Source of the DNA: Pedobacter sp. Leaf170
GTDB taxonomy: Bacteria > Bacteroidota > Bacteroidia > Sphingobacteriales > Sphingobacteriaceae
Direction of reading: 5' to 3'
Assembly: GCF_920984665.1 (NCBI RefSeq)
Contig: NZ_CAKLBP010000003.1
Span: 186,001 to 250,000 of the forward strand
Length of the DNA: 64,000 nucleotides
Every line of letters begins with the position of its first letter. The first letter of the stretch is position 1. The notes under the pieces were generated by a model, which was not told the DNA's origin, made no database searches, and saw only the letters and a program-made list of their open reading frames with translations. The position numbers were made by a program, and so were the translations under genes. Positions 12,268-49,829 of this stretch are shown here, in pieces.

Positions 12268-12532
12268 GAATGTATTTATACGCACAAAAAATTATATCTA
12301 CCCTAAAAAAACTAAGATTATAGCTTAAATTTTTCACATCTAAAACTCTCAAGCCATGACAATAAAAACACACCGGGATATACCATTCAAAAGGAAACAC
12401 AGATAAGCTACAACTGTAATCTATACAGTTTTAATAGCAAATAATTATTTAATAGTTCCCTGCTGCTATATTAAGTTATACAGAATAATTTATAAATAGT
12501 TGCATTTAATATTCCACAAATTATCACTCTAT

Positions 12533-19132: not shown

Positions 19133-19149
19133 ATTATAAAATAGAAGTT

Positions 19150-22100: not shown

Positions 22101-24360
22101 ATCAAAACGAATTTATGAAATTGGAAGTGGTGCCGGACAAATTTTATATGAGTTAGCTCCGGAAACAGAGTATTACATTGCTACCGATTATGCTCAAGCA
22201 GCTATAGATAATATTAACCTCCATTTAAATTCAGAACCTGAAAAATGGAGCAATGTTAAGGCATTAGCAGCATCGGCTGATGACTTCTCTGCAATTGGAA
22301 ACACTCCGGTTGATTTGGTTTTGATCCATAGTGTGGCTCAATATTTCGCAGATGCTGATTATCTTTTAAATGTTATAAAACAATCCCTTAAATCGATTAC
22401 AGATGGAGGTTGTATTTTTATTGGGGATATGCAAGGCAAAAATTCGTTAAGAATGTGCCATGCGATGGACCATTTACCAAGAGATTCAGACTCAAACACT
22501 GTAGAGATTTTTAATAATACTGTTGATAATCGAGTAAGAATTGAAGAAGAATTTGTTGCAGACCCTGCATTTTTCTACGCTTTACCAAAGCTCTTTCCAC
22601 AAATAAAGGGTGTAGATGTTCAGTTAAGAAAAGGTTCGTCTTTAAACGAAACTACAAAATACCATTACGATATCTGGCTGTATGTAAATAAGCCTGTAAG
22701 TAAAGTGAAATCGCAAATTCTTAAATATTGGAGCGATGTTAAAGAAGTTGAACAACTGGAGCTTTTATTAAATGAAAATCCAGATAATAATGTTATTGAA
22801 ATAAGAAATATTTTCAATTCAAGAACAGCAAAAGATTATCATTTGATAAAATTTTTGGAAAAAGTTAGTGTTGACACACGCATTAGGGATGTAAAAGCTA
22901 AAATTAATTCTATTGATGAAGGATTGAGTCCTGATTTATTTTGGGCTTTAGGTGAAAAAATCGGCTACAATGCACATGTTAGGTGGACAAGCGATGGAAC
23001 AGATGGACTATTTGATGTAGTTTTCATTCCTATAACTGATGAATTGGTTATTCCAGAATTTGCATTTCCTGATGAACTTAAAAAGAACATATATGACTTT
23101 GCTAGAACACCGATTTCTCAAAATGAAATCCATCTTGAAAAAGAAATTGTTCAACATTGGAAGCAAAATCTGAGTGAGCATTTACCAGCTTACATGATTC
23201 CTGAAGAATTTATAGCGCTTAAGACTTTTCCCTTAACACCAAACGCCAAAATTGATAGAAAAGCATTACCAAAACCAAGTTCTAAAAAGGCAGTAAACAC
23301 TTCTGAAAAACAAAGCAGACCATTTTCAGAGAACGAGAAATTAGTTGTAGAAATCTGGAAAGACATTTTAGGTTTAGATAATTTAAAACCAACTGACGAT
23401 TTCTTTGAATTAGGAGGTCATTCGCTGTTGGCGGTAAAGGTTATGGTAACCATCGAAAAATCGACAGGTAAACGCCTTCCACTTGCAACGCTATTTAATA
23501 ATTCTACGATTGAAAAATTAGCCAGACAACTTTCAGACGGGAAAACAGAATCTAAGTGGGATGCCTTAGTGCCGATTAAAACAGATGGAGGTAAAACGCC
23601 GCTATTTTTAATTCATGGAGGTGGCTTAAATATTTTACTTTTTAAATCAATTAGCACTTATTTCGATAAAGACCAACCAGTTTATGGCTTGCAAGCGTTA
23701 GGCTTAAATCATCCTACGGATGTACCAACAACAATAAATGAAATTGCAAAAAGATACATTAAAGAGATTTTAGAGGTTAATCCGAATGGCCCTTATGCAT
23801 TGGCGGGTTATTCTCTCGGCGGATTTATAGCATTTGAAATTGCAAAAGAATTAAAGTTATTAGGAAAAGAGATTAAGCTCTTGGGCATTATGGATACTTA
23901 CGCCGGAAATAATGAGGTAGTGGATGATAAGGCAAATCATTTATTTAAGAAATTTAAACGTCAGTTTCACAAGGTTCCATTCTTCACAAAATCTTTTATA
24001 AGTAATCCAAAAGAAACGATAGATTATCAACTTACAGTTACTAAAAATAGGATAGAAAAAATTAGAACGAATAGTGTTGCAACTAAAGATGTACTAACAG
24101 AATATGAAACTGAGATTTATAAAAATTATAATATTGCACATAATAATTATTATTTAGCACCAGCAGATTTGAAAGTTACCTTATTTAGAGTAGCAAAAAG
24201 ACTGTATTATCTGGATGATTTAATTCATTTAGGTTGGGGTAAATTTGCTAAGCAAGGTGTAGAAGTGCACGAAATACCTGGCGACCACAAAACATTTTTA
24301 TTTCCGCCAAACGACAAGGAGTTTGCAGAAATACTTCAGAAAAAGCTTAATTCTATTTAA
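19150..24360 (+). CDS. NRPS, C-A(methyltransferase)-PCP-TE termination module
   Basis: The 1736-residue enzyme follows the first megasynthase by 17 bp. Condensation domain about 15-445 with intact HHAIGDG near 153; adenylation from about 460 (YTSGSTGKPKG near 623, KIRGHRIELGEIE near 875); a SAM methyltransferase of about 400 residues inserted before the final A motif (YEIGSGAGQ near 992, DLVLIHSVAQYF), the usual site of NRPS N-methyltransferases; the last A motif NAKIDRKALP; PCP LGGHSLL near Ser1424; thioesterase with GYSLGG (Ser near 1553), Asp in MDTYAG and His in GDHKTF. The A pocket reads D-I-L-Q-L-G-M-I-W, one change from the glycine code, so N-methylglycine (sarcosine) is predicted as the last residue. 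The thioesterase hydrolyses or cyclises the product. Confidence 0.95.
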   Translation: MLNFTPVDFDPFGEVKIIEKITPTNEPQREIWLSCIIGGEDANLSYNESVSLEITGELNFNALNKAVNDLVLRHEALRSTISPNGESLIIYKNLPVDFELVDISDLDSIAQKSLLKSFIRRVLDTPLDLYEGPLFKVYLHKLHTAEHFLTIVKHHAIGDGWSTGVILEDLSKMYNAYSNGENLNLDRPAQISDYAIAQAKFKKSDDFRKTENFWLDIFKNNVPVLDLQTDYPRQSPRTYKGNRIDYPYDKDFINKVKSVGAKAGCSLVTTLLSAFEVFLYQKTNQKELVVGLPSSGQSATEMCDLVGHCVNLLPLKTTINTEKDFIDYLKKRKGEVLDAYDNQRLTFGELIKKLYIPRDPSRITLVPVVFNIDMGMDNSVKFDGLNYKLISNPRAYENFEIFLNATSSKDGLVLEWSYNTGLFKEETIESFNSTLKTLLEKIILNPESSIAQLTDKEDVFFEAADEVFIAEHESVNTLIAQSVISYPDKTAFSFEGIKLSYQQLDNKVNQLASYLVEKGIGKGDIVAISVDRSTEMLVSLLSILKTGAVYLPLDPEYPVDRIEFMLEDSNAKLLLLSDDYYTKYQSNVEEVVINEIWPQLQSYSKTFEEKEIKGSDLAYILYTSGSTGKPKGVKITHRNLANFLISMKTSPGIKGSDRLLAITTISFDIAGLELYLPLISGAELVLANTESTKDGRILLKVLEEEKITMLQATPSTLQMILDSGWDSKFDLKILSGGEALPKDLAIKLLNLSTELWNMYGPTETTIWSTVKEIEAEDKIVSIGWPINNTQVYIVDENGNRLANNEVGEIYIGGEGVAAGYLNRPELTNEKFVPDNFSKKTGKKLYRTGDLGKILDNGEIQCLGRIDHQVKIRGHRIELGEIESIISKQNGVKQAVVLAREDIPNDKRLIAYLTLENKNDDVNDSAWKAHWDTLYEIGAENKSSLDVSDQNIDGTLLEHLANSEDLKKQAAEWIETSVERIKEQKSKRIYEIGSGAGQILYELAPETEYYIATDYAQAAIDNINLHLNSEPEKWSNVKALAASADDFSAIGNTPVDLVLIHSVAQYFADADYLLNVIKQSLKSITDGGCIFIGDMQGKNSLRMCHAMDHLPRDSDSNTVEIFNNTVDNRVRIEEEFVADPAFFYALPKLFPQIKGVDVQLRKGSSLNETTKYHYDIWLYVNKPVSKVKSQILKYWSDVKEVEQLELLLNENPDNNVIEIRNIFNSRTAKDYHLIKFLEKVSVDTRIRDVKAKINSIDEGLSPDLFWALGEKIGYNAHVRWTSDGTDGLFDVVFIPITDELVIPEFAFPDELKKNIYDFARTPISQNEIHLEKEIVQHWKQNLSEHLPAYMIPEEFIALKTFPLTPNAKIDRKALPKPSSKKAVNTSEKQSRPFSENEKLVVEIWKDILGLDNLKPTDDFFELGGHSLLAVKVMVTIEKSTGKRLPLATLFNNSTIEKLARQLSDGKTESKWDALVPIKTDGGKTPLFLIHGGGLNILLFKSISTYFDKDQPVYGLQALGLNHPTDVPTTINEIAKRYIKEILEVNPNGPYALAGYSLGGFIAFEIAKELKLLGKEIKLLGIMDTYAGNNEVVDDKANHLFKKFKRQFHKVPFFTKSFISNPKETIDYQLTVTKNRIEKIRTNSVATKDVLTEYETEIYKNYNIAHNNYYLAPADLKVTLFRVAKRLYYLDDLIHLGWGKFAKQGVEVHEIPGDHKTFLFPPNDKEFAEILQKKLNSI

Positions 24361-24367
24361 TAATTAA

Positions 24368-25054
24368 ATGAAAAATTTATTTATTGATAATATTAACTGG
24401 GAAATTACAGACTGGAATTTAGACAACAGCCATACACATATTTTTAAAATAAATATTGCCGAAAAATTTAAAGATATCTATTCTAAGTATGAAGATGTTT
24501 TATCTGATAACGAGATTTTAAAATCAGAAAAATATCTTCAGGTAAGGGATAGGAAACGATTCATAACCAGTAAATATTTTCTCAGGTTAATCTTATCAAA
24601 AATTTTATATACTACGCCTTCCGAACTACAGTTTAGTCAGCACTACAATAATAAACCAAAATTAAGCGGTATTGAATTTAATGTTTCGCACAGCGGAGAT
24701 AAAATTTTAATTGCCATTAGCCCTAAGCCAATAGGCATTGATGTAGAATCATTAACTAAGCCATTTGATTTCGAATCGATAATAGAAACGTGTTTTCATC
24801 CAGATGAAAAAAAATATTTAATTAAGGCAGACAGACAAAACTTTTATACATTTTGGACCAGAAAAGAAGCCGTTTTGAAAGCAACAGGCGAAGGGTTAGT
24901 TGATAATTTAGAATCCATAAATACTTTTCAAAATCGAATAGAGCGTAATACGGAATATTTTGAGCTTAAAAGCTTTTTAATTGACAATGATTATGTTGCA
25001 AGCTTGGCTTTCAAGTCTTCGGTGCACAACGCTATAAAATTCTGGATTATTTGA
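24368..25054 (+). CDS. Sfp-type 4'-phosphopantetheinyl transferase
   Basis: The 228-residue protein has the Sfp/HetI family motifs: FNVSHSGDKILIAIS, IGIDVESL with the metal-binding Asp and Glu, and FWTRKEAVLKATGEGL. It transfers phosphopantetheine from CoA to the serine of carrier proteins. It starts 7 bp after the NRPS stop, so it is surely co-transcribed and activates the two PCPs and one ACP of this locus. Its stop abuts the stop of the convergent glycosyltransferase gene, marking the end of the biosynthetic operon. Confidence 0.95.
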   Translation: MKNLFIDNINWEITDWNLDNSHTHIFKINIAEKFKDIYSKYEDVLSDNEILKSEKYLQVRDRKRFITSKYFLRLILSKILYTTPSELQFSQHYNNKPKLSGIEFNVSHSGDKILIAISPKPIGIDVESLTKPFDFESIIETCFHPDEKKYLIKADRQNFYTFWTRKEAVLKATGEGLVDNLESINTFQNRIERNTEYFELKSFLIDNDYVASLAFKSSVHNAIKFWII

Positions 25055-33330: not shown

Positions 33331-34524
33331 GTGGTTAACAGCAACAATAGAATTAAAAAATTAGTAATTATCACGGCCTGTCTTGATGATTGGGGAGGAA
33401 GTGAAGAGCTCTGGGCAAAAAGTATTCCTCATTTTAAATCTAATGGAGTTGATAATGTTATTCTTTATAAAAACCGTGTTAACAAACAGCATCCACAATT
33501 TAAAAATCTCATTAAAGAAGGTTTACAAATTAGGGAGTTTGATGGGAAATTAAAAAGGCTCAAATCAATAACTGCGAAGGTAGGTCATGTAATTGGTAGA
33601 ATTGCTGATAAATTGGGTATTGCGGAATTTAGCTGGAATAAATCTGCGAAGAATATATCTAATTTTTTAGCAAAAGACAGTCCCGATTTTGCCATTATTT
33701 CTCAAGGTATAAATTTTGATGGTTTGAGCTTTGCCTACGAATGTTTAAAGCAAAACATACCATATATTATTGTTGCGCACAAGGCAGTTGAGTTTTATTG
33801 GCCTAGCCAAGGTGACAGAAATTATATGAAGCAAACATTGCTAAAGGCAAAAAAATGTTTATTCGTTTCAAAACATAATTTAAAAATAACCGAAGAGCAA
33901 TTTGGGGTTAGATTACCCAATAGCGAAATTATTTTAAATCCGGTAAAAACAGAAGTTAACCCGCTACCTTATCCAACAAATAATGAAATTATAAAGTTAG
34001 CCTGCGTTGGTAGGCTTTTTGTAATTGATAAGGGTCAGGATATTTTATTGAGGATTTTAAACTCGCCTAAATGGCGGGAAAGGAATTTATCCATAACGTT
34101 TTTAGGAAAAGGTCCGGATGAACAGGGGCTTAAAGACATGGCCGAATTATTCGGTTTACGCAATATTTATTTTAAGGGTTATACAGATGACATTCGGGAA
34201 ATTTGGAAGGAACATCATGCCTTGATTTTACCTTCCCGAAGTGAGGGGCTTCCATTAACCATCATCGAAGCGATGTCTTTCGGCAGACCAACAATAGCAT
34301 CAAATGCTGGTGGAAATGCTGAAATTATTCAAGATGGTATAACTGGATTTATTGGAGAGGGTGATGAATATTCATTTGATTTAGCAATGGAAAAGGCATG
34401 GCAACGATCATCTGAATGGGAAGATATTGGTAGAAAAGCTGCAGAATATATTAAACAGGTTTTGCCTCCAAACCCAGAAAAGATTTTTGCAGACCTAGTG
34501 TTAAAGAGTTTGAAAACGGATTAA
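33331..34524 (+). CDS. glycosyltransferase family 4
   Basis: The 397-residue protein begins at GTG 33331; no nearby ATG is in frame. The C-terminal half has the GT4 pattern: KLACVGRLFVIDKGQDIL, ITFLGKGPDEQGL, LILPSRSEGLPLTIIEAMSFGRPTIAS and AGGNAEII. It is a GT-B retaining enzyme acting in the cytoplasm on a lipid-linked acceptor; donor unknown. The stop codon shares its last base with the ATG of the next gene, so translation is coupled. Confidence 0.9.
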   Translation: MVNSNNRIKKLVIITACLDDWGGSEELWAKSIPHFKSNGVDNVILYKNRVNKQHPQFKNLIKEGLQIREFDGKLKRLKSITAKVGHVIGRIADKLGIAEFSWNKSAKNISNFLAKDSPDFAIISQGINFDGLSFAYECLKQNIPYIIVAHKAVEFYWPSQGDRNYMKQTLLKAKKCLFVSKHNLKITEEQFGVRLPNSEIILNPVKTEVNPLPYPTNNEIIKLACVGRLFVIDKGQDILLRILNSPKWRERNLSITFLGKGPDEQGLKDMAELFGLRNIYFKGYTDDIREIWKEHHALILPSRSEGLPLTIIEAMSFGRPTIASNAGGNAEIIQDGITGFIGEGDEYSFDLAMEKAWQRSSEWEDIGRKAAEYIKQVLPPNPEKIFADLVLKSLKTD

Positions 34525-35534
34525 TGAAACTGCTAAAATTTACCAGATACAACGAATGGTGGGAATATAAATTAATTCCAATATTAAGTGTAGGCTACAG
34601 TACAACATTATTCTATAATTTGGAAGTTGAAGAGACAATACTATTTATTCTGAAAGTTTTACTGGCTGTAATTTTTGGGGCAGTTTATGTTAGTATAATT
34701 AATGATTTGGCTGATATAAAAGAAGATCAAATTGCTGGCAAAAAAAACAGAATGGCAACCATGTCAAAATTAGGTAGAACCCTTGTAGTTTTATTGAGTT
34801 TGATAATTGGTATATTCTTCGGTTACAATATCTGGCCAGATACGCTTTCATTGATATTCTTCACGCTATCCTATGTGGTATTTTCGGCCTATTCTCTTCC
34901 TCCATTTAGATTTAAAAAATCTGGTTTTATCGGTGTTTTATGTGATGCAAGCGGCGCTCACCTATTTCCATCTTTATTAATGAGTGCTCACATCCCCTTT
35001 GCAATTGGACATAAACAAAATATATTTTGGATGATTTCTATTGCTTTATGGGCATTATTTTATGGCATTAGAGGAATTTTGGTGCATCAATTTCATGATA
35101 GAGAAAACGACCTGATTAGTAAAACAACAACCTATGCAACCTCGGTAAATCCGCTCAACTTCCGTAAAACAGAATATTTTATTTTAGGAATTGAGATGAT
35201 TGGTACAATTTTAATATTATATAATATTTTAAATCTATACATAGCGCTAGCAGTTTTTGCGTATATATTGTTAACCCTTGGCAGATATTCTATATTAAAA
35301 TACCAAACTGGTTTAATAATTATCCCTACAAATAAGCCGTCTCAATTATTATTAAATGATTTGTATTTAGTTTTTATGCCACTTGCCGTATTATTAAGTT
35401 TATCTCTACATAACAAATTCGGTTGGTTAATGTTAATCTTACATATCATATTGTTTCCGAAAAATATTTGGATAGTTATTAAAGACTTTAAACTAATAAC
35501 AAAACAGATTATTAATAATAAACTTAAAGCATAG
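34524..35534 (+). CDS. UbiA-superfamily prenyltransferase
   Basis: The 336-residue integral membrane protein has the two Asp-rich motifs of UbiA enzymes: NDLADIKEDQIAGKKNR (near residue 66) and HDRENDLISKTT (near 192), with about eight or nine membrane segments. UbiA enzymes transfer prenyl groups or use polyprenyl phosphate as acceptor. The substrate is unclear, and its place among glycosyltransferases and methyltransferases is unusual. It is translationally coupled to the GT4 gene upstream and may supply or use a lipid-linked sugar (inference). Confidence 0.85.
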   Translation: MKLLKFTRYNEWWEYKLIPILSVGYSTTLFYNLEVEETILFILKVLLAVIFGAVYVSIINDLADIKEDQIAGKKNRMATMSKLGRTLVVLLSLIIGIFFGYNIWPDTLSLIFFTLSYVVFSAYSLPPFRFKKSGFIGVLCDASGAHLFPSLLMSAHIPFAIGHKQNIFWMISIALWALFYGIRGILVHQFHDRENDLISKTTTYATSVNPLNFRKTEYFILGIEMIGTILILYNILNLYIALAVFAYILLTLGRYSILKYQTGLIIIPTNKPSQLLLNDLYLVFMPLAVLLSLSLHNKFGWLMLILHIILFPKNIWIVIKDFKLITKQIINNKLKA

Positions 35535-37500: not shown

Positions 37501-39126
37501 CTATTCTATCTTAAATAAATAAACGCTAATATCCAGTGTTTCCACTGACTTAATAATTTTTCCGGTTTTTGATAATTGACTTCGAAGATTTTCTGCTGGA
37601 ACGCTTTTATTGTTATAATACCATTTCGGTATATTAATGGGATCGCCAACGTTTGAAAGATATCGATTATTAAATATAACCCATACTCTTTTTTTCTTCT
37701 TAAATTTATTAAAATCCTGGGTTAAATTTACATTATAATCAGCAAGATTTTTAGAAATTCCCCGAAAATCCCTCCCCTTTATTGCGTAAAATTTATATTT
37801 ATTCAGTTTTTCAAATACGTTGTATCCTGAAAGTTCATTCCAATATACATAAACAGCATCACCATCCTTATATTCAGAATTTACCATATTAAATATTTCC
37901 TTTTGATATGATTTTTTATGAACGTAAAAGGTACTCTCATCTTCAACTGATTTAAATGATTGTATGCAAGGGGAAATTAATAATAGTACAACCAATGTTA
38001 TCTTTAAAAGTTTAGTTTTTTTACCAGAATTAATGTTATCAATGCAAATACCCACAAAAATTATAAATATTGGCGCTATAAATAACCAGAAGCGTTCTGT
38101 TAATGGATAATATTCTAAACCAGAGGCTAAAAATACCAGTAGCAAAGGCGTAATTAATAAAAAAAAATATTCTTTAGATGATTTAAAACAACAATAAATT
38201 CCACCTAAGATTAGTGTAAGTGGTATCCATGGCATTTTAACGATAATATTTAATAAATGTCCATCGCCACCATCGCTTGCAAAATTCCATAATAACCCAA
38301 GCGGATAGTCAAGCATGCGATAAAAACTTGTAAAAAACCATTTTAATTCAGATAATGATTTTGGTGGCAGAGGCATGAAATTATCGTAAAACCTAAACCA
38401 TGTAACAACCCACTCCGCATCAGGAGTTTTATTTATAAATAAAAAAAATAAAGTAATGAAGCTAATTAACCAGGTAAAAAAGGGAATAAAGCTTTTAAAT
38501 AAAAGCCGCCATTGTTTAGTTATCATGTAATAAAGCGATAAACCAATACCAATTCCACCTAAAATAAATACTGATGAGTAAGAAAACCATAATAAAATGG
38601 CCCCGGAAAAACTTAATATGATAGAATCAGATATATTTTCTAAATTTTTAAATCGTAGAATAACATAAAAAGCCAAAATTGAGCATAGTAATTCTGTTGA
38701 GTATTGTTTTATTTCTACTGAATGGTAAATAAATGCTGGAGATAGACATATAATGGCAATGGAAATAAACAGTCCCCATTTTTTAAGGAAAAATTTTGCA
38801 ACCGGAATAAATACAAAAATTGATAGAATACCTGTTAATAGAGGTAAAATCCTCAAGCTATACTGACTGTTTCCTAGCAACTTTAAAAAAAATTTAACAA
38901 CTAAAAGAAATCCAATAGGTGCTTTCTGCTGATAATCTAAAGGTTTACCAATAAGTTGCTTATAATCAAACCGCAATAAGCTAGAAACGAGGTAATCTTC
39001 ATCTAACCATAGTGATCTATCAGCTATATAATGAAAAAGTCTTAAGGAAGTGCCTAGAAAAACGACCAAAACAATTAGCCAATCGACTAATTTATAGTTA
39101 TTTAATTCTTTTTTTAAGAGCAACAT
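37501..39126 (-). CDS. GT39-type integral membrane glycosyltransferase
   Basis: The protein has about ten to twelve membrane segments with the family motif SLWLDEDYL near the first periplasmic loop, holding the catalytic Asp-Glu, as in PMT/ArnT-like enzymes. These use polyprenyl-phosphate sugars on the periplasmic side. I prefer ATG 39126 (MLLLKKELNN), but ATG 39153 is open. A hydrophilic C-terminal domain of about 130 residues follows the last helices. The neighbouring HAD-UbiA pair on the other strand could make its lipid-linked donor. Confidence 0.85.
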   Translation of the reverse strand: MLLLKKELNNYKLVDWLIVLVVFLGTSLRLFHYIADRSLWLDEDYLVSSLLRFDYKQLIGKPLDYQQKAPIGFLLVVKFFLKLLGNSQYSLRILPLLTGILSIFVFIPVAKFFLKKWGLFISIAIICLSPAFIYHSVEIKQYSTELLCSILAFYVILRFKNLENISDSIILSFSGAILLWFSYSSVFILGGIGIGLSLYYMITKQWRLLFKSFIPFFTWLISFITLFFLFINKTPDAEWVVTWFRFYDNFMPLPPKSLSELKWFFTSFYRMLDYPLGLLWNFASDGGDGHLLNIIVKMPWIPLTLILGGIYCCFKSSKEYFFLLITPLLLVFLASGLEYYPLTERFWLFIAPIFIIFVGICIDNINSGKKTKLLKITLVVLLLISPCIQSFKSVEDESTFYVHKKSYQKEIFNMVNSEYKDGDAVYVYWNELSGYNVFEKLNKYKFYAIKGRDFRGISKNLADYNVNLTQDFNKFKKKKRVWVIFNNRYLSNVGDPINIPKWYYNNKSVPAENLRSQLSKTGKIIKSVETLDISVYLFKIE

Positions 39127-39197
39127 GAGAATAAGCCATCGGGAATTCTGCAATATCGGAATTTTTAATAATTTTACACTAATTAATCTCCCCCTAG

Positions 39198-39875
39198 GTG
39201 AAAAATGTATCCCTTAATAATTTGGAATTAGTAATTTTTGATGTTGATGGCACTTTATATAACCAAAGCCAACTCAGAAAAAAAATGCTTTTTGCTTTAG
39301 TTTCATATTTTTTGCTTCACCCATGGAAGATTAATGAGCTTCAAATACTCTATCATTTTAGAAAAGAACGAGAAAAGAAGCAGGGCTTAAGCGCACCAGA
39401 GCTAGCCGAGCAGCAATATCTGTGGTGTAAGGAAAAGGTTAATAAACCGATTGATCACATTAAAAGAGTTGTAGATAAATGGATATTTAACTTTCCCAAT
39501 CGTTTTTTAAAAGAGTGTAGCTATCCTGGTATTAATTTATTTTTCGAAACCTTAGCTCAAAAAAACATTCAAATTGCAATTTATTCTGATTACGATTCAT
39601 TGAACAAACTTAAAGCAATGGACTTGAAAGCAGATTTATTAGTAAGCTCAACTGACTCAAATATCAATGCCATGAAACCAAATTCTGCTGGTTTAAATTT
39701 TATCAAATCGAAATTTAATATAAATGACACTAGCAGGTGCTTGTTTTTTGGGGATAGAAAAGAATTGGATGGAAAATGCGCCGAAAATGCGAATGTGCCA
39801 TTCTTTCTTGTTGAAAAAGAAGCTGCATCTACCTCATTATATAAGCACCTTGCTAAGAAATTGCTCAATCCCTAA
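39198..39875 (+). CDS. HAD-family phosphatase
   Basis: The 225-residue protein has FDVDGTL with the nucleophile Asp, IYSDYDS and the C-terminal LFFGDRKELDGKCA, the four-motif pattern of HAD phosphatases. It starts at GTG 39198, with no in-frame ATG near. It is 2 bp upstream of a UbiA gene of the phosphoribosyl-transferase type, which suggests that it removes the 5-phosphate from polyprenyl-phospho-ribose-5-phosphate. That substrate is inference from context. Confidence 0.85.
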   Translation: MKNVSLNNLELVIFDVDGTLYNQSQLRKKMLFALVSYFLLHPWKINELQILYHFRKEREKKQGLSAPELAEQQYLWCKEKVNKPIDHIKRVVDKWIFNFPNRFLKECSYPGINLFFETLAQKNIQIAIYSDYDSLNKLKAMDLKADLLVSSTDSNINAMKPNSAGLNFIKSKFNINDTSRCLFFGDRKELDGKCAENANVPFFLVEKEAASTSLYKHLAKKLLNP

Positions 39876-39877
39876 AC

Positions 39878-40933
39878 ATGATCGATAAAATTACCATCCC
39901 CGGAAACTCCACATCTGATATTAATTTCGAGGAAACCGAACTTCGTCCAGCAGGCTTAAAAGAATATATAGCAATAGCCAGACCAGACAATTGGGTGAAG
40001 AACCTATTTATGATACCCGGAATGCTTTTTGCCCTATCTATATTTAACACCACTTTAAATGGCTCTATTTTTTTAAAGATTTTTTTCGGTTTAACGAGTA
40101 TTTGTCTTATTGCATCGGCAAATTATGTAATTAATGAATATTTAGATGCTAGCTTTGATAAGTACCATCCACTAAAAAATAAGCGATCGTCTGTAGTTAC
40201 AATTGTTAAACCTTCCATTGTATACACCGAATATGCATTATTAGCATTAATAGGCATTACCATTTCTTTTTTCGTTTCTATCAAATTTATGTCAGTCGCG
40301 ATATTCCTCTTAATAATGGGGATTATTTATAACGTTAAACCATTTAGAAGCAAGGATAGAGTATTTCTGGACGTATTGACCGAATCGGTAAACAATCCTA
40401 TTCGCTTTGCTGCCGGATGGTTCATTTTTAGTCCGGCATTAGGCATTCCAAGCAGTAAATGGGATTTAGATTGGATCAACACATTTCCGCCTGCAAGTAT
40501 AATTATTGCCTATTGGATGGGCGGTGCATTTTTAATGGCCACAAAAAGATTTGCAGAATACCGCTTAATTGGCGATCCTAAAGTTGCTAGTTTGTATAGA
40601 AAATCATTTAAATTCTACAGTGAAAACAGTTTGCTGGTTTCAATGTTTTTCTATGCTATAACCTGTGCGTTTTTTATGGGGATTTTCCTGATAAAAGATA
40701 GGATTGAATTATTAATAAGTTTTCCATTTTTTGCATTACTTTTTGCATGGTACCTTAAAATTGGTTTACTCGATGATTCGCCGGTGCAAGGTTCGGAGAA
40801 ATTGTACACAAGAAAATGGTTTATGTTGTACCTGGTATTATTTACCATTTTATTGTGTGTATTAATGTTTATCGATATACCTTGGCTACACTGGCTTTTA
40901 AGTAACGCAAATAATTATAAATACAGTAGATAG
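39878..40933 (+). CDS. UbiA prenyltransferase, decaprenyl-phosphate phosphoribosyltransferase-like
   Basis: The 351-residue membrane protein begins ARPDNWVKNLFMIPGMLFA, has NYVINEYLDASFDKYHP (Asp-rich motif, near residue 82) followed by KNKRSS, and KRFAEYRLIGD in place of the second Asp motif. This is the signature of the Rv3806c-type group, which moves phosphoribose from PRPP to polyprenyl phosphate at the inner membrane. Nine helices are visible. The HAD phosphatase before it (2-bp gap) and the GMC oxidoreductase after it (5-bp gap) form one cassette. Confidence 0.85.
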   Translation: MIDKITIPGNSTSDINFEETELRPAGLKEYIAIARPDNWVKNLFMIPGMLFALSIFNTTLNGSIFLKIFFGLTSICLIASANYVINEYLDASFDKYHPLKNKRSSVVTIVKPSIVYTEYALLALIGITISFFVSIKFMSVAIFLLIMGIIYNVKPFRSKDRVFLDVLTESVNNPIRFAAGWFIFSPALGIPSSKWDLDWINTFPPASIIIAYWMGGAFLMATKRFAEYRLIGDPKVASLYRKSFKFYSENSLLVSMFFYAITCAFFMGIFLIKDRIELLISFPFFALLFAWYLKIGLLDDSPVQGSEKLYTRKWFMLYLVLFTILLCVLMFIDIPWLHWLLSNANNYKYSR

Positions 40934-40938
40934 ATTAG

Positions 40939-42375
40939 ATGAAATACGATAAATATGATTTGATTATAGTTGGAACAGGATTCGCCTCATCATTTTTTCT
41001 GCAAAAATATCTATCCAAAAATGATTCAACAAAAAAAATTCTCGTGTTGGAACGAGGTTATTTATATAGTCATGCAGAGAAGTTAAAAGTTAGGCGAGGC
41101 GAAACTTTACCCAATTCAAAATACGAACCAAAATGGGATGACCTGGTAGAAAACTTTAATCCTAAAAAAGATTGGCATTTCACAACTGGTTTTGGTGGGA
41201 GTTCTAACTGTTGGTGGGGCTGCACACCGCGTTTTATGCCTTCTGATTTTAAAATGAAATCGCTATATGGTGTTGCTCAGGATTGGCCAATTTCTTATAA
41301 TGATATAGAATCATATTATGAGGAGGCTGAGCAGATTATGCAAATTTCAGGACCTGATGAAACCCCATTTCCAAAAAATGGTAAGTATCCACTGCCAGCG
41401 CATAAATTTAGTAAGGTTGATGATATATTGCATAAAAAATACGGTAATCAATACATAAGCCAACCCACAGCAAGAGCGAGCATGGCAACAAAATATCGTA
41501 ATGCGTGTATGGCATCAAGTACTTGTGGCACATGCCCGGTAGATGCTAAATTTAGTATAGAAAATTCTGGTATGACTATCTATCAGGATTCAAGGGTGGA
41601 AATAGTTTACGGCGCTGAGGTTTATAAATTAGAAATCGTTAATAACGTAGCAAGAAATGTATGTTATGTTAAATCAAATAAAGAATATAAAATAGAGGGA
41701 GAGGTTATAGCCTTAGGTGCAAATCCATTTTTTAACTCAAATATTTTACTTAATTCGGGTGACAAAAACCCCTTAACAGGTAAGGGTTTTGGCGAACAAC
41801 TAGGTGTACAGGTTTTAATTTATTTAGATGATTTAAGTAACGCTGGCGGTAGTACTTGGGTTAATGCAAATGGATACATGCTTTACGATGGACCGCATAG
41901 AAAAGACCACGCTGCATGCTTAATTGAAGTTAATAATGCTCCATTTTTAAGATTTGAAGATAAGAAGTGGTTGAATATCGCGAGTTTCAGACTTATTTTT
42001 GAGGATATTCCTGCTGATAATAATTACATTACCACATCTGATAACAAATTAAAACCGCAGGTTCATTTTAAAGGTAGATCTGAATACGTTGAAAAGGCAT
42101 TAGCAAATGCAAAAGAAAAATTACCAGACTTATTATCATGCTTACCAGTTGAAAAATTCAAATATTTAGATCCTTTTCCAAATGAGGGTCATATAATTGG
42201 TGGAACCAGAATGTCAAAAGATGCCGAATCTGGTGTAGTTGATAAACATTTAGTTCATCATAAATATAGAAACGTTTTTGTATTGGGTGCTGGTGCATTT
42301 ACAACATACAGCGCATCCAATCCAAGTTTAACATTATCTGCCCTTTCTCTACACGCTGCTGATAAAATGTTTTGA
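40939..42375 (+). CDS. GMC-family FAD-dependent oxidoreductase
   Basis: The 478-residue flavoprotein has the FAD loop IIVGTGFASSFFLQ at its start, a cysteine motif ACMASSTCGTCPVD near residue 194, and the C-terminal signatures GGTRMSKD and AFTTYSASNPSLTLSALS. GMC enzymes oxidise alcohols, often sugars. In this cassette it could oxidise a lipid-linked pentose or a polysaccharide residue; neither is shown. It has no signal peptide of its own, but the next gene encodes a small twin-arginine protein that could act as its exported partner. Confidence 0.9.
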   Translation: MKYDKYDLIIVGTGFASSFFLQKYLSKNDSTKKILVLERGYLYSHAEKLKVRRGETLPNSKYEPKWDDLVENFNPKKDWHFTTGFGGSSNCWWGCTPRFMPSDFKMKSLYGVAQDWPISYNDIESYYEEAEQIMQISGPDETPFPKNGKYPLPAHKFSKVDDILHKKYGNQYISQPTARASMATKYRNACMASSTCGTCPVDAKFSIENSGMTIYQDSRVEIVYGAEVYKLEIVNNVARNVCYVKSNKEYKIEGEVIALGANPFFNSNILLNSGDKNPLTGKGFGEQLGVQVLIYLDDLSNAGGSTWVNANGYMLYDGPHRKDHAACLIEVNNAPFLRFEDKKWLNIASFRLIFEDIPADNNYITTSDNKLKPQVHFKGRSEYVEKALANAKEKLPDLLSCLPVEKFKYLDPFPNEGHIIGGTRMSKDAESGVVDKHLVHHKYRNVFVLGAGAFTTYSASNPSLTLSALSLHAADKMF

Positions 42376-42376
42376 T

Positions 42377-42793
42377 ATGCAAAGAAGAAAATTTTTATTG
42401 ATAACAGGTGTCGCTGTTGGTATGGTAGCTATACCTCCTTCTTTATATTTTGTATCACCAAATATTAAAAAATATGCTGAAAAGCTTATTGAAAAAGAGT
42501 TGGGATATATGAAACTGGATAAAAAAGGAATAAACAATTATATTAATGATTACTTTGGAAGTTCTGCAAATAATGTTGTTGCAAATTTAAAGTGGAAAGC
42601 GCTATACTTCGGTAGATATAATTCGTTTGATTCTAATAATATTAATGATCTTTTAAAATATTATTTACTTTCAACAGATTTCTTTTTAAATAGAATGGAC
42701 ACTACCAAACCTGTAAAATATATAGGATTGTTTGACCCTTACAAAAGTCCTGTAGCAAATCCATACTCCTATTTATTTTTGCAGAATAGCTAA
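42377..42793 (+). CDS. small Tat-signal protein paired with the GMC oxidoreductase
   Basis: The 138-residue protein starts with QRRKFLLITGVAVG, a twin-arginine signal with a hydrophobic stretch, then a small alpha-helical domain with aromatic residues (KWKALYFGRYNSF, VKYIGLFDPYKSPVANPYSYLFL). It starts 1 bp after the GMC stop. The paired arrangement matches gluconate 2-dehydrogenase-like small subunits, but sequence similarity to that family is not obvious to me, so it may be a diverged or different partner. Confidence 0.75.
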   Translation: MQRRKFLLITGVAVGMVAIPPSLYFVSPNIKKYAEKLIEKELGYMKLDKKGINNYINDYFGSSANNVVANLKWKALYFGRYNSFDSNNINDLLKYYLLSTDFFLNRMDTTKPVKYIGLFDPYKSPVANPYSYLFLQNS

Positions 42794-44367: not shown

Positions 44368-45678
44368 ATGAAAAAGTTTAAAAAAATGCAAATTTTATTT
44401 GCGCTGGTTTTTCTCGTTTTTGCAACTGCTTGTAAAAAGAATGGTTTAGTTACTGAACCTGTAGCTGAAACACCAATAATCCCACCTACAGTAGCACCCA
44501 CACCAACAACTCCTGTATCAGTTACTCCATCATACCAAGTAGGTACCGGAAGTGGTGATTTAACAATTGATGGTAAAACTCTTGATTTATCAACTATTAA
44601 ATTAATCAAAATTAAAGGTGGAAATTATCTATCGGTAAACATTCAAAATATTAACGGTACTGCATCTCAGCCAATTTACATCGTAAACGATGGACAGGTA
44701 ACAATTACCAATGGTTTGATAACCAATAATATCACAAACGTCTCACTAGTTGGAGATTATAATGAAAGTCCTAAGTATGGAATTGCATTTAAAAATAATC
44801 CATTCAGAGCAATAAAAATGTATGGAAAAATGTCGGGTGTTACTCTACAAAGCCTGCGTTTTACAAATATTGGCGATTATTGTATAGCAGGCGAAAGCGA
44901 TAATGGAAGATCACTTGCCTATAACGGAACTTCATCTACAAGAACCGAAAACTTCAAAATTTTAAACTGCATCTTTGAAAATACTGGTTCTATAGTTTTT
45001 GGTGGTTCTTTAAATGGTGCTGGTGAGGATACAGGTTTTTTCAAGGATGTTGAAATTGCTTATAATACATTTAAAAATTCCCCTGACATAGGTAGCGCTA
45101 TCAATTTCAGTAATGTACAAGATTACAATGTACACCATAACATAGTTGATAATGTTAATACTAGTAATAACAACCACAACGGAATTTTTTATATGCAAGG
45201 AAATGGTAAATTTCACGATAATAAGCTAACTAATTATCAAGGAAATGCAATCAGAATGTGGGTTTACTCTCGGGGATCAACTCCTGCCACTGTTGAGATT
45301 TATAATAATATCTGCTACAATACGCGTAAATATGGCGCATTTGAGATACAAGAGTTTTCTAGACAGATCGTTTCAGGTAAAACTACTTACGTAAATGCTA
45401 AGGTATATAATAACACCGTTGGAAAAATGAATACCAACAGAGATTGGCAAGGTCAAATCTTAGATTTATATAATTATGGTGGTACGCTGGAATTTTACAG
45501 CAACATTGGTTTTGATTTAGTTAACGACAATGGACCTATTACCAGGATGATAAATAACATGAGCGATGTTAAAATAGTGAAAGAAGAAAACAATAAATAT
45601 TCTGCAAACTATTCTGGGGTTATAACTGACTTGGTAAATTTTAACACCTTATTCGCCGGCTTAGGCGCTTCATTGTAA
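44368..45678 (+). CDS. lipoprotein with right-handed parallel beta-helix
   Basis: The 436-residue protein begins with a lipoprotein signal ending FATAC (lipidated Cys22), a Pro/Thr-rich linker (about 32-60) and then beta-helix coils with regular Asn ladders and repeats such as NCIFENTGSIVFGG, IAYNTFKNS, VHHNIVDNV and VEIYNNICYN. Such folds are found in polysaccharide lyases, epimerases and glycan-binding proteins. Inside a polysaccharide locus it is likely an outer-membrane or periplasmic protein acting on the polymer, but no catalytic residues can be assigned. Confidence 0.85.
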   Translation: MKKFKKMQILFALVFLVFATACKKNGLVTEPVAETPIIPPTVAPTPTTPVSVTPSYQVGTGSGDLTIDGKTLDLSTIKLIKIKGGNYLSVNIQNINGTASQPIYIVNDGQVTITNGLITNNITNVSLVGDYNESPKYGIAFKNNPFRAIKMYGKMSGVTLQSLRFTNIGDYCIAGESDNGRSLAYNGTSSTRTENFKILNCIFENTGSIVFGGSLNGAGEDTGFFKDVEIAYNTFKNSPDIGSAINFSNVQDYNVHHNIVDNVNTSNNNHNGIFYMQGNGKFHDNKLTNYQGNAIRMWVYSRGSTPATVEIYNNICYNTRKYGAFEIQEFSRQIVSGKTTYVNAKVYNNTVGKMNTNRDWQGQILDLYNYGGTLEFYSNIGFDLVNDNGPITRMINNMSDVKIVKEENNKYSANYSGVITDLVNFNTLFAGLGASL

Positions 45679-46186: not shown

Positions 46187-47542
46187 CTAACCAATTTTAA
46201 AGATTTTCTTCTTTTGAGTATGATATAATAACATTAACTCTTTAAAGCCAACTTTATAAATGTCGAAAAAATTAAACTTATAGAATTTATTTAAGGGTTT
46301 GTAGGTAATCAGAATTGCTACAATAACCGGCACTACTGATGCAATAGCTATAGAATATATTGACTTATAAATCCACACTCCTAAAAAAACAGCCAATAAA
46401 TTCATAATGGACATGATTATAATCTTGTAAAAATTAATTTTAGGTTGATGAATTACATCCACTCCAATTGCAAAAAAACTATCAGCTGGGTACAGCAAGG
46501 CAATAATCATAAATATTCTAAATAAATTTGGAGCTTCATTAGCAACATAATTTTTACCACCTAATAAGTGAATTATAGGATTTGCAAAAATCAAGGCCAG
46601 GATAACCAAGGGTATTAAACCTAGGGTAAGCATTCCTATAAATTTTTTAAGCGTGTAAATCATTTCGGCCTTTTCCCCTTTATTATAATTTGCTGATATT
46701 ATTGGCATACCACTAGTTACCACACTTATCAAAGGGACTTGAACAATTTGAATAAGTTTACCACCTAAATTATACATGGCCAACGCTGCAGGACCCATTA
46801 GAAAATTAATTATAAAAGTATTCGTAACACTAAATAAATTTGAACTAATATTAGTCCCCATGCTGTATTTACCGAAGTGAAAAAGCTCAATAACAGTTTC
46901 TTTTTTAGCATTGTAAATAGTAGATATCATTGTCCATCTTAAAACCAATACCATTACACTCGCAAAAAGGTTCGATGCTACGTATGAATACATTAGCGAT
47001 TTCAGCGTTAATTGTTCTAAAAAAGCTAATACAAAGACCATCAAAGTGAAAGAACCCTGATTTAAAATCCTTAGCCACAACATTCTATCAAAACGTTTCT
47101 CTGCTTGCACAATACAATCAGCCATAAAACATGGTAAAGTGGCAATTGAAATGACGGAGAAAAATCTTAAAATTAAAACCATGCCCTGATCAGATACATA
47201 ATCAGCGATAAAATAAGTGGGAATATTAATCACTAAAAATAGAACTGCTATAATCACAGATAATAGCCATGCAGACCCCGTTATTTCTTTTCCTCTTTCA
47301 ACTGTTGTACCTGAAAAAAATTTTACGATAGTTATGGTTAAGAAACCCGCCCGTAAATTATCTATTAACCCAATAATACTTAAGAAAAAGATGTAAATTC
47401 CTAAATCGATTGCTGATAAGGTACGATATAAAATTGATAATGTAACTACACCAAAAACCGACATTAATCCATTTGCAATTAGAGATTGTAAATGGATATT
47501 TGAAAAAATAGAAAATAACTTCTTTAAAGATTTAACCATCAA
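46187..47542 (-). CDS. Wzx-type polysaccharide flippase
   Basis: The 451-residue integral membrane protein has about twelve hydrophobic helices and the MATE/MVF-type flippase pattern (IFFLSIIGLIDNLRAGFLT, GPAALAMYNLGGKLIQI). It flips lipid-linked repeat units across the inner membrane. It is the last gene of the long minus-strand block, 26 bp after the GMC gene, and complements the Wzy-like and Wzz-like genes further upstream. Confidence 0.9.
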   Translation of the reverse strand: MMVKSLKKLFSIFSNIHLQSLIANGLMSVFGVVTLSILYRTLSAIDLGIYIFFLSIIGLIDNLRAGFLTITIVKFFSGTTVERGKEITGSAWLLSVIIAVLFLVINIPTYFIADYVSDQGMVLILRFFSVISIATLPCFMADCIVQAEKRFDRMLWLRILNQGSFTLMVFVLAFLEQLTLKSLMYSYVASNLFASVMVLVLRWTMISTIYNAKKETVIELFHFGKYSMGTNISSNLFSVTNTFIINFLMGPAALAMYNLGGKLIQIVQVPLISVVTSGMPIISANYNKGEKAEMIYTLKKFIGMLTLGLIPLVILALIFANPIIHLLGGKNYVANEAPNLFRIFMIIALLYPADSFFAIGVDVIHQPKINFYKIIIMSIMNLLAVFLGVWIYKSIYSIAIASVVPVIVAILITYKPLNKFYKFNFFDIYKVGFKELMLLYHTQKKKIFKIG

Positions 47543-47568: not shown

Positions 47569-49251
47569 CTATAAGTTTCCGTCTTTTAATTGCTGAACAG
47601 CGAAATCACATGCTCTTGCTGTTAGGGCCATATAAGTTAAAGATGGGTTTTGACATGCAGACGAACTCATGCAGCTGCCATCAGTTACAAATACGTTTTT
47701 AACTGAATGAATTTGGTTATGTTTATTTAAAATTGATGTATTAGGATCATTCCCCATACGTGCCGTACCCATTTCATGTATTGTTGATCCTCCTGGCTTT
47801 TGATAGTTGAAAGAATTTACCTCCTCGAAACCAGCATTTATTAGCATTTCTTTACAAGTATCTTGAATATCTTTCATCATTCTCTCTTCGTTTTCTCTAA
47901 ATGAAAAGTCTATCCTTACTTGTGGTAATCCCCATTGATCTTTTGCATGCTCATCCAGTGATATTTTATTATCATGATAAGGAAGGCATTCCCCCCAACC
48001 TGCCATCCAGACTGTCCAAGGCCCGGGTGTTACAAGGTTCGATTTAAAATCAACTCCAAAACCTTCGTTATTTTTTTTATCTTCCCACTCTTGACGTTCG
48101 CCGTCGCCCTGAATATTATATCCACGAATAAAATCGAATTCACTTTGAGCTTTTAAATTTCTATATCTTGGAATTAAAAAACCACATGGTCTTCTACCTT
48201 CGTAATATTTGTCTTTAAAACCATTAAAGGTTCCAAACGCACCGGCTGATGAATGGTGATCCATAAGATTATGACCCAACTCGCCACAATCGTTGCCCAA
48301 ACCATTGGGAAATCTTTTTGATTTCGAATTCAGCAAAATTGAAGTAGTAGAAATCGTGGATGCGTTAACGAATATAATTTTTGATTCGAATATAAAATTT
48401 TCATTGGTTTGGGCGTCAATAACCCTAACCCCCGAAGCTTTTTCTGTTTTATCATTATACAATATCTCGGCCACTACAGAAAAAGGTCGTAATGTTAAAT
48501 TCCCTGTTGCCTCTGCAACCGGTATGGTAGAACTGTTGCTGCTAAAATAACCTCCGTATGGACAACCTCTGTTACACAAATTCCTGTATAAACACGGACC
48601 CCGATTATCCCATCCCTTGGTTAAATTTGCTACTCTTGCAATAGTAAGTGTCTTTCCTTCCTTTTTTATTGAACTTCCTAAGTGCTTTTCAACACAATTT
48701 AATTCCATTGCTGGAAGAAAATTACCATCTGGCAAGTGCGAAAGATTTTTTCTTTCTCCGCTTACACCAACAAATGATTCAACATAATCATACCAAAATT
48801 CTAAATCCCTATATCGTATTGGCCAATCTACACCATAACCATCATTTTTATTTGCTTCAAAATCTAAGTCACTTAAGCGATAACATTGCCTACCCCATGT
48901 TAAAGACTTACCGCCAACCTGATATCCCCTAAACCAATTGAAGGGTTTCTCCTGAATGTAAGGTTGAGCCTTATCACTTGCATAAAAATGCTTTATTGCC
49001 GGATTGTAGGCTATACTCTGAACCGGATCTTCTAGTTGATCTTGAAGTGTATTATTTAAACCATTTTTAAATTCCCAAGGTTTAAGGTTTGCTGTTGGAT
49101 AATCAATAATATGTTTAACATCTCTCCCTCTCTCCAATAATAAGGTTTTTAAACCTTTCTTACATAACTCCATAGCAGCCCAGCCGCCACTGATGCCAGA
49201 TCCTATAACAATAGCATCATAGAAATTTGAAGTGTTTTCAGAATTTTGCAT
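47569..49251 (-). CDS. GMC-family oxidoreductase with gluconate-dehydrogenase-type partner
   Basis: I start at ATG 49251 (MQNSENTSNFYDAIVIGSGI), 2 bp after the small-subunit stop; an ATG at 49299 would lie inside that gene. The 560-residue flavoprotein has the GSGISGGWAAMELCKKG FAD loop, LLLERG, the Cys-rich GPCLYRNLCNRGCPYGGY, and C-terminal STIHEMGTARMG and VFVTDGSCMSSSACQNPSLTYMALT. It belongs to the GMC enzymes paired with gluconate 2-dehydrogenase subunit 3. Substrate unknown, probably a sugar. Confidence 0.92.
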   Translation of the reverse strand: MQNSENTSNFYDAIVIGSGISGGWAAMELCKKGLKTLLLERGRDVKHIIDYPTANLKPWEFKNGLNNTLQDQLEDPVQSIAYNPAIKHFYASDKAQPYIQEKPFNWFRGYQVGGKSLTWGRQCYRLSDLDFEANKNDGYGVDWPIRYRDLEFWYDYVESFVGVSGERKNLSHLPDGNFLPAMELNCVEKHLGSSIKKEGKTLTIARVANLTKGWDNRGPCLYRNLCNRGCPYGGYFSSNSSTIPVAEATGNLTLRPFSVVAEILYNDKTEKASGVRVIDAQTNENFIFESKIIFVNASTISTTSILLNSKSKRFPNGLGNDCGELGHNLMDHHSSAGAFGTFNGFKDKYYEGRRPCGFLIPRYRNLKAQSEFDFIRGYNIQGDGERQEWEDKKNNEGFGVDFKSNLVTPGPWTVWMAGWGECLPYHDNKISLDEHAKDQWGLPQVRIDFSFRENEERMMKDIQDTCKEMLINAGFEEVNSFNYQKPGGSTIHEMGTARMGNDPNTSILNKHNQIHSVKNVFVTDGSCMSSSACQNPSLTYMALTARACDFAVQQLKDGNL

Positions 49252-49253
49252 AA

Positions 49254-49829
49254 TTATTTTGTTGCCCAAGCTTTTTGGTTTCGTTGTAATACTGTACATC
49301 CATTGTACCTTCCTGGTACAAAATTAAAGGCCAAACCTTGTGTAGCACCCAATTCTGACATACAGTAACCCTCAACTGTCATTCTTTTTAGGCTAGTAAA
49401 AAACGGTGGGCCAAATACTTTCTTATGTACACGATTCATAAATGGAATGATATACTCATCTTTCGACTTGAAAAAATTTAATATCTCAATTCTTTCATTA
49501 GCAGAACAATCAATAAATGAATTATCATAAGCCGTGAGGGCATAACTTTCAACTTCTTGCAAGCCATTTAAGAATCGATTTTGTTCTACAACACTAGAAC
49601 AGTTCGACAAAATATTGATAATGTATGTAGAAACTCCTGCTCTGGCAGCTCCGGGCGTATCGGTTTCTGGAATTATAGTTTCTGCCAGCTCACTAATCAA
49701 TGTTTTGCTTTTTTGCAGAGATTTTAAATCGATAGTCTTATGTAGCCTACGCCATTCAAAAGTGGAAAACGAAAAGATCCCCATCAAGCCTAAACCCAAA
49801 GCATACTTAATTGAGACTCTTCTATTCAT
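49254..49829 (-). CDS. gluconate 2-dehydrogenase subunit 3 family protein
   Basis: The 191-residue protein starts NRRVSIKYALGLGLMG, a twin-arginine-like signal, followed by LISELAETIIPETDTPGAARAGVSTYI, the typical opening of the subunit 3 family, and later FNFVPGRYNGC. It guides and anchors the GMC flavoprotein encoded 2 bp downstream in the periplasm. The pair lies between a GT2 gene and the flippase gene. Confidence 0.9.
   Translation of the reverse strand: MNRRVSIKYALGLGLMGIFSFSTFEWRRLHKTIDLKSLQKSKTLISELAETIIPETDTPGAARAGVSTYIINILSNCSSVVEQNRFLNGLQEVESYALTAYDNSFIDCSANERIEILNFFKSKDEYIIPFMNRVHKKVFGPPFFTSLKRMTVEGYCMSELGATQGLAFNFVPGRYNGCTVLQRNQKAWATK

Follow-up and report, generated by a model that had tools for sequence, protein, structure and literature searches.

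A three-component pathway for pentofuranoses was described by Kelly et al. in 2024, with Citrobacter youngae O1/O2 as its prototype (PMC11127046). In that pathway, undecaprenyl-phospho-ribofuranose is the product of a UbiA/HAD protein; it is exported by a flippase and transferred by a GT-C enzyme. The words 'Bacteroid' and 'GMC' are absent from its main text. We analysed a 64,000 nt stretch of Pedobacter sp. Leaf170 (the window, whose positions serve as coordinates) carrying a five-gene block that compares closely with this pathway. The two have in common a UbiA-family protein, here a putative phosphoribosyltransferase, an HAD phosphatase, a GT-C transferase and an optional sugar-modifying enzyme. 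The features matched in the block are an HAD gene 2 bp upstream of the UbiA gene and the GT-C glycosyltransferase, the phosphatase specificity being a candidate one. However, HAD and UbiA are separate genes in the window, and its UbiA carries NE rather than ND. The Citrobacter system has a dedicated MATE flippase, whereas the block has none. The optional enzyme of the block is a flavin, and probably iron-sulfur (Fe-S), dehydrogenase with a partner bearing a twin-arginine translocation (Tat) signal; its counterpart in the published system is a short-chain dehydrogenase/reductase (SDR) epimerase or DprE1/DprE2.

Two other systems bear on parts of the block. The mycobacterial Rv3806c pathway to decaprenyl-phospho-arabinose (DPA) shares with it the UbiA family, nine of eleven donor-site residues and, presumptively, a lipid-pentose donor for GT-C enzymes (PMC10994848). 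It differs in that the UbiA of the window belongs to a separate clade, the phosphatase is HAD rather than PAP2-type, and no DprE1/DprE2 match occurs here. The flavoprotein shares with the flavin adenine dinucleotide (FAD)-dependent glucose dehydrogenase (FAD-GDH) of Burkholderia and with fructose dehydrogenase (FDH) a GMC protein without apparent signal peptide, a cysteine triad and an adjoining small Tat-signal partner (PMC6719666). In contrast to FAD-GDH, the last cysteine spacing is x2 here and x3 there, the small partner is not detectably related and the window has no c-type cytochrome gene. In a literature search without most subscription journals, no paper on a GMC/Tat addition to such a pathway was found. 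An earlier note, made from the letters of this DNA alone, had taken a Bacteroidota version with a GMC oxidase to be new. A Bacteroidota UbiA module that includes a GMC flavoprotein does exist and recurs, but the core pathway had already been published in 2024 (PMC11127046). Most likely, the pathway is known and the novelty lies in the UbiA clade and in the GMC/Tat redox accessory, whose part we infer.

Five open reading frames (ORFs) were confirmed at 37501-42793. The GT-C transferase gene lies on the minus strand, divergent from the genes for HAD, UbiA, GMC and a small twin-arginine protein, all on the plus strand and separated by gaps of 2 bp (HAD/UbiA), 5 bp (UbiA/GMC) and 1 bp (GMC/small protein). 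Pfam matches above the cut-offs are HAD_2, UbiA, GMC_oxred_C and PMT_2. This is the order given in the earlier note (HAD and an Rv3806c-like UbiA 2 bp apart, then GMC and a small Tat protein), with which the ORFs, the Pfam matches and the twin-arginine (RR) motif agree. The block is surrounded by a Wzx/Wzy exopolysaccharide locus that encodes numerous glycosyltransferases, an initiating sugar transferase, a Wzy-type protein and a weak Wzz-type protein. The block was compared with 80 named loci of relatives, the best of 399 confirmed matches. Together with the window these make 81 loci, of which 80, window included, have a called UbiA and are counted; L123, without a called UbiA ORF, was omitted. 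The intact block is present in 18 of the 80 loci, 17 of them Pedobacter-like (window included) and one in a Niabella metagenome-assembled genome (MAG), and the co-occurrence that the earlier note had proposed to look for is borne out. The five genes are a module, recurring above chance. The neighbours of the block differ from those of the window in two P. cryoconitis strains and are similar in size between these two. In one of them, L072, six neighbours were tested and none is a polysaccharide gene: they encode SusC, SusD, a phosphoesterase, two redoxins and YceI.

The UbiA-fold protein (39878..40933, plus strand) is a candidate polyprenyl-phosphate phosphoribosyltransferase of what we call the NE clade, on the strength of its PDB match, a residue table and trees. 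In the PDB, nothing but Rv3806c matches it at E <= 1 (8j8j, E 2e-9; also 8j8k). Its best model scores, all under the cut-offs, are to PRK08238, which we take to be an HAD-UbiA fusion family, and to decaprenyl-phosphate phosphoribosyltransferase models. Identity to an actinobacterial decaprenyl-phosphoryl-phosphoribose (DPPR) synthase, that of Tsukamurella, is 26% over 62% of the query. The residue alignment took in clade relatives, DPPR-synthase-like proteins, E. coli UbiA, MenA, CyoE and the other UbiAs of the genome (which has six UbiA-family matches, one under the cut-off); the table includes a wrong-frame row (Bact_L036) and a truncated one (Bact_L046), and the Nocardia locus L151 was dropped for its unusable frame. 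The eleven contacts of Rv3806c with phosphoribosyl pyrophosphate (PRPP) were taken as named in PMC10994848. The nine that are kept (R22, K28, Y70, N73, D77, K87, R90, Y138 and K143) are present in all 32 clade rows. K28 is found in none of the eight other UbiA-family rows, two of which are gapped there, and Y70 in one of the eight, a poorly aligned row. The donor-site motif N86-E87..D90...D94..H97-P98.K100..R103 (40133..40186, plus strand) is likewise kept in the 32 aligned clade rows.

The NE clade received support of 97/97 in a first, larger tree and 99/99 in a second. Both were built without Bact_L036, and the second also without OWN_C2_L006, Bact_L046 and 21 thinned rows. The closest named relatives among the matches listed are from Pedobacter. 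The clade also occurs on Rhizobium, Rhodobacter and Paracoccus plasmids and in Lachnospiraceae, Methylococcales, Nitrospirota and a cyanobacterium, with MAGs from Lachnospiraceae and Gammaproteobacteria carrying it. The protein thus belongs to a distinct clade, placed tentatively near the Rv3806c-type polyprenyl-phosphate phosphoribosyltransferases. The likeness to Rv3806c claimed in the earlier note stands in the PDB match, the model scores and the donor-site residues; the trees join it to DPPR synthases only weakly. An identity as a quinone or haem UbiA is ruled out by the residues and the score pattern, the trees alone not settling it. Two apparent HAD-UbiA fusions were rejected: the extra N-terminus in L111 has no match to the HAD profile, and that in L097 looks by eye like out-of-frame read-through. 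No such fusion is therefore claimed for the clade.

The HAD phosphatase (39198..39875, plus strand; HAD_2, 51 bits) is a candidate polyprenyl-phospho-(5-phospho)ribose phosphatase. Residues D15, D17, K160, G185-D186-R187 and D191 are invariant in 21 rows. Within three ORFs of UbiA, an HAD gene of this family is found in 59 of the 80 loci, a GT-C gene in 44 and a GtrA gene in 13. Of the loci without the HAD or the GT-C gene, some come from short contigs, and in some a different HAD or PMT_2 protein is present; an alternative HAD cluster occurs in four loci, and two members tested, from L118 and L065, match PF12710. In P. paludis L088, UbiA has no adjoining HAD, GT-C, GMC or Tat gene of these families; that locus looks as if the module were decaying. 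The earlier note had paired UbiA and phosphatase as in mycobacteria. A phosphatase gene does adjoin UbiA, but the mycobacterial phosphatase is of another family and the likeness is functional only (PMC11127046).

The GT-C fold glycosyltransferase (37501..39153, minus strand; PMT_2/ArnT/OST-like) is a candidate periplasmic pentosyltransferase with a lipid donor, its true start probably lying downstream of the TTG. It was assigned from a weak PMT_2 match (28 bits against a cut-off of 26.1) and from the fold of an AlphaFold model (mean confidence score, pLDDT, of 89, with residues 1-18 low). The best solved matches of the model are oligosaccharyltransferases, ALG12, PMTs and ArnT (Z up to 24), and the AftA, AftB and Emb arabinosyltransferases match at Z 11-17. 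D51 and E52 are invariant in 28 rows. A membrane glycosyltransferase is thus present beside the block, as the earlier note had it, but the name GT39 has only the weak PMT_2 match behind it, and the fold is common to many families; GT-C enzyme is the safer name. The pairing of UbiA with a GT-C enzyme is supported.

For export, a Wzx/MATE-type flippase of the same polysaccharide locus (46187..47542, minus strand; Polysacc_synt_3, MatE) might flip the lipid-linked pentose; homologues lie within three ORFs of UbiA in four relatives (L070, L094, L096 and L102). Annotated gene orders on a Rhizobium and a Rhodobacter plasmid are UbiA-HAD-GtrA and HAD-UbiA-GtrA, and GtrA behind UbiA was confirmed by Pfam in four of the relatives' genomes and in L118. 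The Leaf170 genome has two GtrA genes, unlinked to the block. A replacement of GtrA by GMC was considered and found no support: GtrA is present in 4/25 loci with GMC/Tat against 5/29 without (L058-L110 plus the window).

The GMC flavoprotein dehydrogenase (40939..42375, plus strand) resembles the large subunits of FAD glucose and fructose dehydrogenases. A family profile searched against the PDB matched FAD glucose dehydrogenase (8hdd/6a2u, E 2e-52) and the fructose dehydrogenase large subunit (7w2j, E 2e-45). C190, C196, C199, H418 and N461 are invariant in 17 rows and align to 6a2u and the fructose dehydrogenase large subunit; H418 and N461 are presumably the His/Asn pair of GMC enzymes. The cysteines (C190-x5-C196-x2-C199; 41506..41535, plus strand) are candidate 3Fe-4S ligands. 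They align with C212/C213, C218 and C222 of Burkholderia cepacia FAD-GDH, where C212, C218 and C222 hold a 3Fe-4S cluster according to PMC6719666. The conserved triad is thus a candidate site for such a cluster, and the GMC sequence, His/Asn pair and cysteine triad together reproduce the features of FAD-GDH/FDH large subunits.

The small twin-arginine protein (42377..42793, plus strand) is a candidate Tat hitchhiker escort of GMC by its RR motif and gene position. An N-terminal twin arginine is present in all 25 family members, window included, and in all 25 loci that have it the gene lies directly 3' of the GMC gene. No Pfam or NCBIfam match to the protein was found. TatC is encoded in the Leaf170 genome, and the GMC protein and its partner are probably exported. 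An assignment of the small protein as gluconate-2-dehydrogenase subunit 3 found no support, the profile comparison pairing the twin-arginine start alone at a probability of 2.9. Its best PDB profile match has E 1.3, and a fold search, for which the model was of middling quality (pLDDT 70), had no hit at E <= 0.001 and a best Z of 4.5 among 16 chains.

We tentatively read the block as a lipid-linked pentose module with periplasmic GMC oxidation of a lipid- or glycan-linked pentose, and hold this reading as a whole at somewhat under one half. Its core, the lipid-linked pentose, is highly probable; given that core, the probability that GMC acts on the pentose is a little over one half. UbiA would transfer 5-phospho-ribose from PRPP to undecaprenyl phosphate, and the HAD enzyme would strip the 5-phosphate to leave undecaprenyl-phospho-ribofuranose. 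A flippase (GtrA in several relatives, here perhaps the Wzx/MATE protein or an unlinked GtrA) would turn the lipid-pentose to the periplasm, where the GT-C enzyme would put the pentose on the exopolysaccharide of the surrounding Wzx/Wzy locus. The GMC protein would fold in the cytoplasm with FAD and a 3Fe-4S cluster, be carried out by the twin-arginine protein and oxidise a hydroxyl of the pentose on its lipid or glycan, the electrons going to the respiratory chain. A more specific form of this proposal, which we consider doubtful, assigns to the GMC protein, with its Fe-S cluster and private Tat escort, a periplasmic redox step dedicated to a pathway of lipid-linked pentofuranose. The protein would convert polyprenyl-phospho-ribofuranose or a glycan ribofuranosyl residue into a lasting keto- or aldehydo-pentofuranose (or, re-reduced, into an epimer), on a scaffold that has no kinship with DprE1 and is connected to respiration rather than to a cytoplasmic reductase.

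The link between GMC/Tat and UbiA was examined in two genome samples, one of the family (n=151) and one of the phylum (n=395), with two genomes in common, the window's own among them. At a threshold of E <= 1e-60, GMC orthologues were found in 4/151 family and 3/395 phylum genomes, each with this UbiA at most 10 kb away; UbiA, counted at 60% identity or more, was present in 8/151 and 4/395. Loci with GMC/Tat no more than 10 kb from this UbiA come from four Bacteroidota families, and 20 of the 25 GMC/Tat loci have the UbiA, GMC and Tat genes in direct succession. A mirror-tree comparison of GMC and UbiA gave r 0.83 against 0.44 for the best of 5000 shuffles (n=25), but species phylogeny is not removed from this value and it carries little weight. 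The core might instead add plain ribofuranose while GMC/Tat oxidises a different surface sugar or alcohol, linked to it only through the same envelope glycan. This we regard as unlikely, though it is the strongest of the alternatives: GMC/Tat is optional (25/80 loci) and does not adjoin UbiA in five of these, and 5 kb off there is a second GMC, which has a Tat-signal partner to itself, but GMC orthologues in the two samples are confined to genomes with this UbiA, and the block is intact in P. cryoconitis L072, where none of the six neighbours tested is a polysaccharide gene.

As to the pentose itself, the earlier note had expected an arabinose donor made by oxidation and epimerisation. We searched with a DprE1-like query (L153), a Flammeovirgaceae plasmid flavoprotein annotated as FAD-binding oxidoreductase and encoded between a DPPR synthase gene and an SDR gene. 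At E <= 1e-10 it has no match in the Leaf170 genome and none in eight of nine other genomes with an NE-clade UbiA, the ninth (G048) giving a weak 24% match. ND genomes served as the control: next to the ND-type UbiA of G101 and of G116 the query has 58-60% matches, but two further ND genomes yielded nothing. Neither the query nor the adjoining SDR, our DprE2-like query, which was not sought genome-wide, has a match in the 80 loci (E <= 1e-10) or in the window (E <= 1e-3). Beside ND UbiAs, DprE1- and DprE2-like genes were seen in 4/30 and 3/30 loci, 26 of the 30 having 1.5 kb flanks. The expectation of arabinose is thus not borne out, and because no DprE1- or DprE2-like match was found ribofuranose is the default product, although an unrelated epimerase may yet be conceived.

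In a variant that keeps arabinose, a cytoplasmic GMC would replace DprE1 in the C2 oxidation of polyprenyl-phospho-ribose and a reductase encoded elsewhere would finish the epimerisation. Pyranose 2-oxidases, which oxidise C2, are among the weaker PDB matches of the C-terminal part of GMC, and none of the five GMC-bearing genomes searched has a DprE1-like match. We nevertheless judge this variant quite improbable: a DprE2-like match is present neither in the window nor in the 80 relatives' loci, the constant partner of GMC has a twin-arginine start, 55 of the 80 clade loci show no GMC, and among solved structures GMC is nearest to sugar dehydrogenases, one of which, the glucose enzyme, leaves the cytoplasm with a Tat hitchhiker (PMC6719666). 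Very improbable is prenylation of an aromatic or other small molecule by the UbiA clade, with the phosphoribosyltransferase likeness a mere distant kinship: many UbiA enzymes are prenyltransferases, polyketide synthase (PKS) and non-ribosomal peptide synthetase (NRPS) genes lie at 12.5-24.4 kb and the trees tie the clade only weakly to DPPR synthases, but the PRPP contacts K28 and Y70 are kept, and HAD and GtrA partners occur on plasmid stretches without annotated PKS.

Several observations weigh against a pentose module with periplasmic oxidation. Its basis is comparative throughout (gene order, homology, conservation of donor-site residues, cysteines and GMC residues, the modelled GT-C fold and co-occurrence), and substrates, direction, oxidation site, cluster, electron acceptor and export are what we infer from it. 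UbiA scores 59.9, 57.1 and 55.4 bits against NCBIfam cut-offs of 474, 234 and 207 (NF008976/7/8). In all 32 clade rows the PRPP contacts Q135 and Y157, on the ribose side, are changed to G and N, and D74 to E; other DPPR-synthase-like rows mostly have N or Q, and F, at the first two positions. Because of these clade-wide changes the PRPP donor could be altered. The phylogeny suggested by the earlier note gave UbiA its own clade, but in the second tree the union of NE with the ND proteins (DPPR synthases) apart from seven other UbiAs has support of only 62/82, with long branches. In the first tree the other UbiAs do not form one group, and the NE clade pairs with a long-branched UbiA of the same genome, OWN_C2_L006, at 99/81, a join that the tree program flagged as possibly false; this pairing is gone from the second tree because OWN_C2_L006 was left out.

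Among the partner genes, an HAD of this family is not within three ORFs of UbiA in 21/80 loci, and a GT-C of this family is not in the DNA fetched at 34/80. The block of the window contains no dedicated flippase gene. Profile, PDB and fold searches found no sequence or fold link of the small protein to a known hitchhiker subunit, and none of the window's stop-to-stop frames of at least 100 amino acids (aa) contains the c-type cytochrome motif CxxCH, though a cytochrome could be encoded elsewhere. With no GMC/Tat seen in 55/80 loci, the core can do without it. Where present, GMC/Tat is separate from UbiA in five loci, in several of them near another membrane protein and a second flavoprotein. 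This conserved membrane protein of 471-491 aa (about 485 aa; L077:16448-17911, L079:11090-12565, L103:7427-8881 and L080:11060-12475) has no Pfam match in the three members tested and lies near GMC/Tat outside Pedobacter, once without GMC/Tat (L080). By eye we take it to resemble HTTM/VKGC-like proteins. It has no match in the Leaf170 genome.

The recently described furanose-pentose decoration of bacterial glycans is now placed in Bacteroidota, with an uncharacterised clade of presumed lipid-pentose synthase. If GMC acts on the pentose, the oxidation done in mycobacteria by the drug target DprE1 would have been reinvented on another scaffold, probably at the membrane's outer face, and oxidised pentofuranoses would be worth seeking in these polymers.

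Other features of the locus and of its relatives are as follows. A 436 aa protein (44368-45678) without a Pfam match has a lipoprotein-like start by eye and occurs in 13/81 loci. At 34524-35534 lies a second, distant UbiA-family protein, weakly homogentisate phytyltransferase-like, present in 10/81 loci. The second GMC dehydrogenase (47569-49829) has its own C-x5-C-x3-C motif by eye and is overlapped by a Tat-signal gluconate-2-dehydrogenase-3 partner, found in 13/81 loci. Pedobacter sp. MC2016-15 carries a second set (L065:2549-6356) of a PF12710-type HAD, a 561 aa protein, an ND-type UbiA and a GtrA-cluster protein beside a first set that has no HAD of its own. Adjoining the exopolysaccharide genes, a two-protein PKS/NRPS line with a phosphopantetheinyl transferase occupies 12500-25054. 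Its domains are AMP-binding, ketosynthase, acyltransferase and class-III aminotransferase, followed by condensation, AMP-binding, methyltransferase and thioesterase, and P. paludis L021 has the C-terminal piece of a homologue (52% over 404 aa).

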